From Pocillopora verrucosa (taxonomy: Eukaryota; Cnidaria; Anthozoa; Scleractinia; Pocilloporidae), in contig NC_089319.1 in NCBI RefSeq assembly GCF_036669915.1, positions 7,854,346-7,918,345 of the forward strand: a stretch of DNA of 64,000 bases, in the 5' to 3' direction. This document shows positions 3,674 to 63,787 of the stretch, in pieces; position 1 is the first letter of the stretch, and each line of letters opens with the position of its first letter. The notes under the pieces were generated by a model. That model was given only the letters and a program-made list of their open reading frames with translations, was not told the origin of the DNA and did not search any database. The position numbers and the translations under genes were made by a program.

Positions 3674-6600
3674 CTATGATTCTGCGTCTGGTTCAGGTGC
3701 CATATCATTGTCCCCTACGTCGGCGGACCTATCTGCCCTGGTAGACTTTCTTCTTGGTTCTGGGGGAGTGGTGAATCCACTGCGAGTTGTTGCACCACCG
3801 CGGCCCCTGAGAAAAAGAGAGAGAGAGAGAAAAGCTCAGAATTGCATGCAACGGTCTTCGCGATGCGCAAACGTTGTTCAAGTCTAAAATCGTGCAAGAG
3901 TCCCATCCTTTCGTATCGGAGTTCAGGAAGTAGCGATTACAGGATAGGCCAATAGTCAAATTGCGCAACTAAATTTGAAACTTGTTGCATTATCGAGTCC
4001 TTTCCGGAGCGTTTAACCCTTTAACTCCAGTGAGTGACCAAGACATAACTTCTCCTTACTGTATCTATACAATATCATGCAGACAAGTGATGACAATAAA
4101 GAAAAATATCAATTATGGAGTTACTAATTGATTCCATACCAATTTCTCCGAACTAACATAATGAGAATCATTGGACAGACAGTAAGGAGAAGTGAGATCG
4201 AATCAAAGATTTTTGAACCGAAGGGTTCAAATTGTGGCAACAAAAAGGTCGGCACTCACCGGAGCCTATTCCGGAGACTTTGTACTTCGCGGGTCAATTC
4301 CTCGTTCGCTTCAATGTAGTCATCCAGTTCTCGTTGAATTTTGCGTTTGGCGGCATTGAGTCGAGTGTTCTCTTCCTCCGCCTCATCTACAGATCGCTTC
4401 AAGGTCTTCACACGAGTGTTTACCTTTTCCATCTGAAGGGACAAGGAGTCAAAAAAAAATATTCAAGATGAGGCTTTTGTATGTATTTTCCAATAGGATT
4501 CTTTTTAAAAAGAGCTTCTCAAAGAGGGAAAGATCGAGTGCGAGGTAGACCTCAAAGTGACCTTGGAAAAAATGATTGATGTCGCTATTTCTTTGAACGA
4601 CCACAAAGATCTGATAGCACTCTTGTCATTTTGCAATTGGGAAAACGACGAACTCAAAATAACTTTCCCAAAGAGTAAAAGATGTATTACATAATTAAAG
4701 CATGTTGCAAAAAAGGCTTTTAACTCTTAGGGCGCTGATCACACGTCTCCTTAAAAGACAGTACAATTGAAAACTATTCCACCAGAGTAACTTGCTTCTC
4801 AAGACTTCACAAAGTTCTCTACATGTCCAAAACAGAACTGATGATAAATCTTTGATTGAACGGTTTCTTAGCCGAATAAAAATTTAAAAAAATGTTACTA
4901 TTACACAAACCTGTTCTTTATATTGGTCAGCATGTCGTCTTTCCTCCTCTGCTTGCAACACTGCCTCTTTGTACTTCTTATCGAGCTTGCGGTTGTTCTT
5001 GGCCATGGTTGAACGCTCCCTGAAGCAGGGCACACATTATGATTAACCAAAATATGCCTCATATGTACATTGACATTTTCTATGCAATTTCCTCCCTGCG
5101 TATTACCCAGTTTGGATCAAGTCAGTATCTGAGCACCCACCCCTCCCCTAACCCAGCATTAACCCTAACTTGTTATCCGTTGACTGATGTTAGGAAGGGA
5201 AGGGGTAAGGGTGCAATTGCTCAGATATTGACATCGATCCCCCTGTAACATCACACCAGTTTATGAAAACCGTTTCGACGTTCACAGCCTTCTACTTTAA
5301 CGTAATTAACATAAATTGTTTAAAAATTTGTTGGAAAGAAACTAGGATCTAGGGAATGCGGAATAGCGAAGAGAAAGAGTAAGACGCGGACACGTTTACC
5401 GTTCATCCGCCTTAACCGTCCGGGCTCCGTAATGGCAGCCTCAAAAGTGAGAAATAACTTTTAAAATAATTAGAATAACTAAGCTGCCAAACAATAGCCG
5501 AAAATGATTCGTCTTTCCGAAACGTATTTTAGTATCCTCGTTTCCATTCTTCCAACTCCACTTTTACACGCTGGAGGATCGCGGATCGAAGACTGAGCAA
5601 CTTTTTTCGTTACTTACTTGGACTCAGCATCAAGTTGTTCTTGCAATGTCGCTAATTTGTTCTCCAGTGCTTGCACGGTCATCCGATTGCGGGCGCGCGT
5701 CTGGCTTTCAAGCTCCGCTAGTTTTACCTTCATGTCCTTGTTCTGAAAGAATAACATAACAGAAATTGACAAAATAAATAAATAAGAAAGAAATTAATAA
5801 ATAATGGAATAAATAAATGATTCTGTCTTTGGTTTCAAGGGAAATCAAGGGTAACAAAGGGGACACCGTTTACACTAAATATAGCGGAGAATCCACAAGG
5901 GGTAACGGGGCGATCGTTCGTCTCTCTTACCTGCTTCTCTAGCGTCAGCTTAGCGCTCTCCATTTTCTGTAATGCAGCTCGCTCAGAGTTCAAGTCTGTC
6001 TGGAATTGTTCCATCTGTTATTGTAATATAAAAATAATACACAATGAATTCAACTTGACTCAAGCAGCATTAAACAATTCCAGCTGGTCACAACTCTTCC
6101 CACAAACCTGCATGTTAGCCCGCTTGTATTTCTCCATCAGCAGTTCGTTCTGAGTTCTTTCCTCCTCGATTTCCTCTTCCAGTTGAGCGATGCGTGCATC
6201 TTGTTTGCGCTTCTCGTCGGCAGCAGAGCCCCTGGAACGTAAGCAAAAAAAGTTAAGCAACTGCAAGAGGAATCATGAAGAAATAAACAGTATGGTTTGA
6301 TCAAGTTTTTCATTTACAATCCAAGCCAATCTTCTTTATTTGTTCCTCCTCAGTAGCTCATAGTCACTTTAGTCTTTTGCCATCTTTCACAACAAGTTTT
6401 ATTCCTTTCTAGTTGAAGAAAACGCTGTGCGATGCAAACATTTTCCCTCACATTTTGTGTCATGGACAAACCAGGTAGAATTCGGGACGTTTGAAGTGAC
6501 CTTTATTCAATTGCCTTTTGGTATTTCTCCTCTTTAGTTCTAACAAAAATTATTTAATTATTCACCTTCATTCTGTCCATATGCGCTAAATTGAGGGCGC

Positions 6601-9600
6601 CATTTTATCGAGTCGAAAAAAAAACACAATTATTCACCACGGTTACTCGAAATAAGTGTAAAGCCAGTAAGAACTCCAAGTACCGAAATCTAAGTAATCG
6701 GCCACGAGAGGAAAATTCGCAAGTAGCCTTAATCTTGCATCTGATGAGCTGATAGTGTCGCTACTTCTTCTGAGCAGTTTTAATGTTACCTGAGATGAGT
6801 TGAACTCGCTAGTTCTTCTGCTAACTCGTCTCTTTCCGATTCTAAACTCTTTCTGGCTCGTTCGGCAGCAGCAAGATCCTAGAAATCAGAAAGAACGATA
6901 ACTCTTTTAACACTTGTTGCTATAATTGTTCCAACAAGAACACAAGTTTTAATTTTGTATGGGAAGAATGAAACACTCGTCTAAATCTAGTAAAACTTTC
7001 CTACAGATACTCGCAGTTTTCTGAATCTTTTTGTCCAATCACCAGACACGATGGAAACTCGCAAGCACCAAGGTCAGTAAAAAAGGTTATCTGGGCGACT
7101 TCAGCGGCGATAAAAGTTGTCTCAGATTAACTTTAGAGGAGTTCAAATTGGTCATGTTTCCCGGCACAACCCCGTACCTCTTGCATTTGTAAGTAGTCAG
7201 CCTCCAGCTGCTTGGCTTTCCTCTCGTTTTCTTTGGCTTGCTCAGATATCTCGTCTCTCGCTTGTCGGGCGTCGTCTAGATCTCGCTGAATATCCTTAAC
7301 CTGCTGTTGGTATTTCTTCAGTTGACGGATGCCATCTTCCTTCACACGGTTGCTTGCGTCAAGTTGTTCTTCCAGATCAGCCATATCCATTTCGATCTTC
7401 TTCTTAGCGTTAGCAGCGCTAACTCTGCCCTTGCGCTCTTCATCCAGTTCGCTCTCAAGTTCACGGAGCTGGAAAAACCAAAGCACACGAATTATCATTG
7501 ATATTTTCAACCTTAAACTTGCAAGATCCGAGTAGTAAACCTTCCACTCTGGCTGTTGGAGCACCGAAACCAAAGTAACCAAAACGATCAATAAATAGCC
7601 CTTACCTAATGAGAAATCAAAGTGAAAACTGGCACTCCGTCAGAAGCGCGGGAAAACGCGAGCGACAAGGTCACGATAGACCTCTTAACTTGGATATTTT
7701 GATTACCCATTCCAGGTCGCAAGGGAATTCCCTGCTTTATCTTTTGTAAATTATGCGTACATATGCGCGTGAATAAGAGGGAATTTGAAGGAAACAGTTC
7801 TCTAGAGCATGATCACATGAGCTGAAATGGGTAAACAAAACAGGCAAACTAAACAGGTCTATTGCTGTTAGTTTCTCATCCGATAGGTAAGAGGGAAGGA
7901 AATGTAAGTTTCTAGACCAATCACAGAGCAGAGTAAAGCAAAACCAAAGTAATTGAAAATTGCTTCATACATTTCTTCGTTAACTGCGTGAGGTAGTCTA
8001 GTGTTTTATCACGTTAAACCACCCCACCCACCCCTCCCATTTTAGGTCACAATGATCGTCATCGTTTTGTCTATTCTAGACATGTGAAGGAGTTACTTGT
8101 AATCACCTCTGGGAATGAAACGGTGAAAACATGGAACGGAGAACTAAGACAGCCAAAGGTTCTATCCGCAATTGAATTGATTACTGAAATAAATAAACCT
8201 TTTCAGGTCTTAAGATTTCAAAATGCAAGGCTAACCCGAAAGAATTTTAGTCATAATTGTGATTTTCGGTCATGAGTTATTATGATAGCAATGCCCACCT
8301 GTTTGAGTAACGCTTTCCTCTTCTCTTCGTTCTGCTCGTCCCTTGCAGCCAGTTCTCTATCAAACTGAGTCTTGGCGGCTTGCATGTTGACCTCCATCCT
8401 CAGCTTGGCATCCTCGGTGATCTGCAGCTCGTCCTCAAGTTCTTCGATCTGTTGTTTCTTCTCTTCGAGTTGAGCTTCTAACAACCGTTTAGCCTTCTCC
8501 AACTCGTGCACGTTTTTGCCGAAGTCATCTTTGCTTTCCATCATGGCTTCGAGTTCATTCTGTGCAGCCTTGCGGACTCTTTCAGTTTCTCCAAGCTTCT
8601 CTTGAAGCTCCTCCAATTCGTGCGTGAGAGAGATAACCTGGAAAAATAACAGCACACGAATGGTTTAAGAAGTAGTTCGTGAAACCGTGGCACACTTGTC
8701 AGACGCGATTGTGATACAGTTCGTTGCAGCGATAGAGAAAGCAAAGTAAAGCTTTAGTAAGACATTAACTCCAAATCACGCTGGTTTGGGGGACGTAAAT
8801 ATGATACATTGGCAGAGGATTCCAGCTTGCTGATCAGTTCTATTGTTCTGCTCACCTGCCCAATTTTTTGGTATTGTACAAAGAAATGAAAGTTTGATCA
8901 CTGAAAGGACAACTGGAGACACATACCTTTGTTTCATTCTGTCTGGCGTCTCGTTCAGCGTTATCCCTTTCCATAGCGTTCTTCTCAGAAACGGCTTTCT
9001 CTTCTGCGAGCAACTGCAATATAGAAGAAAAGACACATTAACAATCTCTCTCTCAGATCAGATGAAAAACAACTAAGGATTTCTGTCTTATTTCCAAGTC
9101 CGTGGTCGTAACCCTAAATGGCAATCCTACTGAGCGGTACTCTGAAGTACTTTCACGAGCTCAAAGCTTTGTTCTTTGAAAAGAATATCTGGTTGCTTCA
9201 GGGCTCTGTTCTAGCGACTTTGGACCGCCCAGTTCCTAAAACACTTTTATCAGGGCAATACGAGTCATTTTATGATAAAACTTAGTCGCCTGTGGCATTC
9301 AGGGTCTGTATGCGCAAAGTAAATCTTGCACAATAAGACGTTGTTCATAAGTTTAAGCCTGTGGGCAAATCTTCGATACTTCACATCTAGGATCAACGCT
9401 TCTTGGCACTTTTTTTTCCAATTTTGAATTTCTTCTTGTAGTTAACTCCATCATTAATCCTTCGTCTTCCACCCAAATCTGTATTCTTACAGTTACCTGC
9501 CAGTGGCGGAAAACAAAAGGTGTCAAACACCTCGCGAGCAATTCCAAGCTAAACCAACCTGATCAAACTTTCTCTGTTTCTTCTCCAGGGCACTGACTTG

Positions 9601-63640: not shown

Positions 63641-63787
63641 ATGGCAGTATACTTTGATCATAAAATTCAGGCCCCTTCAGTGGCAATACAGACTGATATA
63701 GCATGGCACAACAATTATTCTCTTTTGGCAGTTGCTTCGAAAAATGAACCAGATATGGGAGGCTCTGTTAACTTCTATCTTGATGAG
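63641..63787 (+). CDS. IFT140: Intraflagellar transport protein 140, first exon
   Basis: First coding exon only; the gene continues past the window. The 49 codons (MAVYFDHKIQAP, IAWHNNYSLLAVAS, GGSVNFYLDE) match the start of IFT140, whose human form begins MALYYDHQIEAP and continues with SWHP...LAVA and GSVDIYLEQ. This is the first blade of the N-terminal WD40 propeller of an IFT-A subunit used in retrograde ciliary transport. The donor is GAG|GTACGT at 63787. The tail of the window (63788-64000) is intron with no feature seen. Divergent with B9D1, whose start codon is 647 bases away. Confidence 0.88.

Follow-up and report, generated by a model that had tools for sequence, protein, structure and literature searches.

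A six-gene row in Pocillopora verrucosa as a probable sample of one ancestral animal chromosome

A stretch of 64,000 nucleotides from the coral Pocillopora verrucosa (assembly GCF_036669915.1, contig NC_089319.1, positions 7,854,346 to 7,918,345 of the forward strand; the window) carries a row of six recognisable genes: a myosin II heavy chain of non-muscle/smooth type, TAB1, DCUN1D3, MRTF, B9D1 and the first exon of IFT140. The row probably samples, at one place, a single ancestral animal chromosome, which would have been duplicated in early vertebrates. For DCUN1D3, MRTF and TAB1, linkage in other animals supports an origin in one ancestral linkage group. Membership of the myosin, B9D1 and IFT140 in the same group, and the course of events in vertebrates, we infer.

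Results

Linkage outside Pocillopora was read from protein records; two records whose longest encoding contigs have an identical size in bases were taken to lie on the same contig. The protein lists behind the counts hold at least 120 of 743, 120 of 605 and 120 of 744 matches, and more species are possible. In the sea anemone Nematostella, DCUN1D3 (P0020) and MRTF (P0260) fall on a contig of 16,388,311 bases. DCUN1D3 is found with TAB1 in the hemichordate Ptychodera (P0032 and P0136, 41,504,173 bases) and in the crinoid Antedon (P0049 and P0185, 41,379,608 bases). Among the matches listed, one or the other of these pairs is kept together in three of the four species that have both genes of a pair on contigs longer than 10 Mb, the fourth being the katydid Anabrus simplex. 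The chance of at least three in four is about 0.001 with mixed chromosome shares and 0.004 with a share of 0.1 for each species. The shares are 1/15 for Nematostella, which has 15 chromosomes (PMC10719294), 41.5/1160 Mb for Ptychodera, whose genome is given as 1.16 Gbp (PMC11175523), and an assumed 1/11 and 1/15 for Antedon and Anabrus. The count leaves out five species with smaller scaffolds (see Discussion). Also left out are TAB1 of Nematostella, whose record is partial and comes from a scaffold of 2,246,329 bases, and the genus Branchiostoma, for which DCUN1D3 comes from B. floridae and TAB1 from B. belcheri.

DCUN1D3 and MRTF are also paired on two smaller contigs, of 588,356 bases (P0002 and P0242) and 824,895 bases (P0010 and P0257). 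The P0002 cluster comprises five contigs, the 588,356-base one being the longest, and the pairing of P0002 with P0242 is slightly less certain. Among the matches listed, the only named species with the myosin and another gene of the row are Actinia and Anneissia, both on small scaffolds that differ. A joint protein query with B9D1 and TAB1 found a B9 domain in none of the 120 listed of 605 matches, and is uninformative for B9D1.

The first-pass annotation had taken the row for a pre-vertebrate block, still tight in this coral, that was later duplicated and sorted in vertebrates, and had proposed other cnidarians as a check. The ancestral linkage stands for three genes, pairwise, in sea anemone, hemichordate and crinoid, with the katydid contrary; in Nematostella, DCUN1D3 and MRTF share one contig and are not scattered. 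The tightness is taken up in the Discussion.

In a midpoint-rooted MRTF-family tree of 17 rows, from which MRTFA is absent, the five vertebrate MYOCD and four MRTFB sequences form one group with support of 100/99, and the two arthropod and six cnidarian rows fall outside it. This grouping is what a vertebrate-specific duplication would predict, and it agrees with the coral MRTF being the single pro-orthologue, as the annotation had assumed. Two turtles, those in which MYOCD and MRTFB are both listed from comparable contigs, carry the two genes on different contigs. The sizes for MRTFB and MYOCD are 84,054,250 and 44,337,225 bases in Chelonia mydas, and 84,161,023 and 48,227,231 bases in Natator depressus; a further Chelonia MYOCD record comes from a shorter contig of 12,059,114 bases. 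The separate turtle contigs fit copies on separate segments, as expected.

By their known human locations, MYH9, TAB1 and MRTFA lie on 22q12-q13; MYH11, MRTFB, DCUN1D3 and IFT140 on 16p12-p13; and MYH10, MYOCD and B9D1 on 17p11-p13. The longest contig for human MYOCD (P0348) has 84,276,897 bases, which we take to be chromosome 17. The fourth member of the MYH9/10/11/14 quartet, MYH14, presumably on 19q13, was omitted by the first-pass annotation. Part of human 17p11.2 and 16p are together taken to correspond to chicken chromosome 14; for this reason B9D1 may have reached 17p secondarily, and not on the ancestral copy of MYH10 and MYOCD.

The identity, order and place of the six genes, first called from the bare sequence, are confirmed by sequence, domain and structure matches. 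The predicted TAB1, DCUN1D3, MRTF, B9D1 and IFT140 are clear as families. The six genes span 60.1 kb, equal to 10.0 kb per gene. Of the 100 open reading frames of at least 80 residues in the window, 12 further ones were searched against Pfam and gave no family. Overlooked other genes within the row are rejected as far as these 12 frames show. No additional gene interrupting the row was seen, although small or fast-evolving genes may escape such a survey. At 900-2100, pieces of open reading frames resemble what we take to be a retroelement reverse transcriptase; three of these pieces, tested against Pfam, gave no family.

The myosin II gene occupies about 3674..29994 on the minus strand, as located by tblastn of Oculina P0268 and Acropora P0273, a rough splice model and a ranking against the PDB. 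The tblastn pieces of the Oculina protein span residues 1 to 1954 of 1971. The rough model has about 39 coding exons, and 15 internal stops arise because 4 of its 38 junctions are unresolved; its tail is unreliable residue by residue. A hand-cleaned piece of the motor served as the query in the PDB ranking. It scored 1300.7 bits with myosin-10, 1285.7 bits with myosin-9 and 1284.7 bits with smooth muscle myosin/MYH11, all three full-length, and 1126.5 bits with a myosin-14 construct. These scores place the predicted protein in the MYH9/10/11/14 kind, as a candidate pro-orthologue. A striated-type myosin was ruled out, the best striated score being 883.9 bits among the best 60 of 71 matches, versus 1126.5 to 1300.7 bits for the MYH9/10/11/14 types.

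Two further features lie within the myosin gene. A tandem array of units of about 33 bases is located in an intron at 16170-16549, with 8.7 copies at 16263-16549. The exon at 24486-24640 precedes a conserved stretch of 12 residues; by eye it is longer than its counterparts in Actinia and Hydra and similar to those in Oculina and Acropora.

TAB1 lies at 33855..39845 on the minus strand, with six exons and a PP2C-like domain. Its model is identical to P. meandrina P0121 at 523 of 528 residues (99.1%), and is without the exon for the first 9 residues, which was not located. DCUN1D3, at 42715..43629 on the plus strand, is an open frame with protein matches, a single-exon coding sequence of 304 residues that is 99% identical to P. 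damicornis P0001. It scores 258.5 bits with DCN1-like protein 3 versus 163.2 bits with the next-best, DCN1-like protein 2; an identity as DCUN1D1 or DCUN1D2 is ruled out by these values. The protein begins with MGKC, presumably a lipidation-type start. The DCUN1D3 coding sequence is intronless, and its neighbours have many exons.

MRTF is located at 49537..55197 on the minus strand by tblastn of the Nematostella proteins P0260 and P0241 and by the Pfam SAP and RPEL domains on its large exon. The tblastn matches mark an RPEL exon at 55126-55197, an RPEL region within 54792-55061 and a C-terminal exon at 49537-50034; the large exon with RPEL and SAP covers about 51239-53311. The 5′ start of the model was not located, and its splice sites are unrefined.

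B9D1, at about 60779..62993 on the minus strand, was assembled from the open reading frames of about six exons joined by eye, and its start codon was read. Residues 13-178 match the Pfam B9-C2 domain with an E of 6.1e-61; against the PDB there was no match at E 0.1. The first coding exon of IFT140 lies at 63641..63790 on the plus strand, and the gene continues past the window. The exon, whose start codon was also read, matches the first-propeller domain (Beta-prop_IFT140_1st, E 5.9e-14, Pfam), and its start aligns with residue 1 of the solved IFT140 chains 8fgw/8bbf at an E of 0.001.

The two cilia genes B9D1 and IFT140 stand head to head (62993-63641), on the minus and plus strand respectively, with start codons 647 bases apart. 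The two genes may share a promoter. Words resembling RFX half-sites occur near 63016 and near 63256-63275. RFX-like X-boxes show no clear enrichment in the window, with 24 matches at two or fewer mismatches versus a shuffle mean of 19.2.

Discussion

A row of this kind would arise as follows. The gene membership of one ancestral linkage group would be old, and the order and spacing in Pocillopora would be one shuffled arrangement of it. The same ancestral chromosome would have been copied twice in early vertebrates, with MYH and MRTF retaining several copies and the other genes one each. Such retention would scatter the genes over the related human segments 16p, 17p and 22q, plus 19q with MYH14. 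Neighbouring coral genes taken from such a linkage group should map mostly to those human arms.

Between Nematostella and Scolanthus, 8117 of 8692 orthologue pairs are reported on matching chromosomes with their order largely lost, and in that study no two species on opposite sides of the anthozoan-medusozoan split have a stretch of at least four genes in common (PMC10719294). Amphioxus and vertebrates are described as deriving from 17 linkage groups, within which the genes have been extensively reordered (PMC7269912). The published record explains the coral row without a special block. A literature search found no paper on coral micro-synteny; among the papers listed it also found none on MYH or MRTF/MYOCD as a paralogon, a weak negative given that most subscription literature was outside the search.

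Several points weigh against descent of the row from one ancestral chromosome. In Anabrus simplex, DCUN1D3 is on a 353,050,121-base contig and TAB1 on a 348,162,358-base contig. Equal contig size only stands in for an equal contig, and the linkage evidence outside Pocillopora covers three genes, DCUN1D3, MRTF and TAB1, pairwise. In Saccoglossus, Actinia, Anneissia, Acipenser sinensis and Caerostris darwini, two genes of the row are on different smaller scaffolds, which is indecisive and lends no support. The human map places enter as background.

The katydid would also suit a chance gathering of genes in this coral, since it separates DCUN1D3 from TAB1. The human arms would then have been picked after the fact, once the genes were seen, and multi-copy families ease such matches. 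We consider this very unlikely. A pair stays together in three of the four species with both genes on contigs longer than 10 Mb, at the probability of about 0.001 to 0.004 given above. Moreover, for four single-copy genes all to fall in arms taken to hold 5 to 15% of all genes has a probability of 6e-6 to 5e-4, before correction for the choice of arms.

It is unlikely, too, that the six genes were already a tight block before the cnidarian-bilaterian split and were kept so in Pocillopora by linked regulation. Such a block would accommodate all six genes recognised in the row, and in two sources DCUN1D3 and MRTF are found on one contig, of 588 kb and 825 kb respectively; these contigs bound the distance between the two genes to 588 and 825 kb only. 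The spacing of the coral genes argues against it: about 10 kb per gene is an ordinary density for corals and near Pocillopora genome values, so that "tight" requires no explanation, and linked human copies are megabases apart. The tight ancestral packing of the first-pass annotation is accordingly not supported, the reported loss of most gene order in anemones and the absence of blocks of four or more genes across the anthozoan-medusozoan split (PMC10719294) also speaking against it. That a myosin II-TAB1-DCUN1D3-MRTF cluster has stayed within tens of kb since before the cnidarian-bilaterian split, with the coactivator beside its own motor target, is highly improbable.

Scarcely credible is the proposal that myosin and MRTF are kept side by side by MRTF-SRF control of the myosin gene, aided by a domain common to both. 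The myosin start codon does have a perfect CArG box, the site of SRF, 854 bases upstream of it, at 30848-30857. However, the window contains just two perfect CArG boxes (the other at 8037-8046), fewer than the shuffle mean of 5.4; TAB1 and DCUN1D3 sit between the myosin and MRTF; and transcription factors need no proximity to their targets. The box at 30848-30857 hints at ordinary regulation of the motor gene by MRTF-SRF, and would not be evidence for an obligatory neighbourhood.

Sampling from one ancestral chromosome, the explanation we favour, makes the row a clean small example of how a vertebrate paralogon can be recognised from coral genes that lie side by side, with no need of a chromosome assembly. 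MYH, MRTF, TAB1 and DCUN1D3 are candidate markers of one linkage group. The general picture of animal chromosome evolution, to which the row adds one more case, is unchanged.

Two known systems resemble it. One is the SSTR2/3/5 paralogon of vertebrates, part of whose chromosome 17 share we take to lie on 17q. This paralogon consists of blocks of conserved synteny on human chromosomes 7, 16, 17, 19 and 22, among them all three that the first-pass annotation names; it differs in being defined from other gene families, MYH and MRTF not being among those in its description as available (PMC3560075). The other is the set of ancestral linkage groups of animals (Simakov et al. 2020, PMC7269912; PMC10719294), which the coral row resembles in that orthologues are found on one chromosome in distant phyla while their order is not kept.

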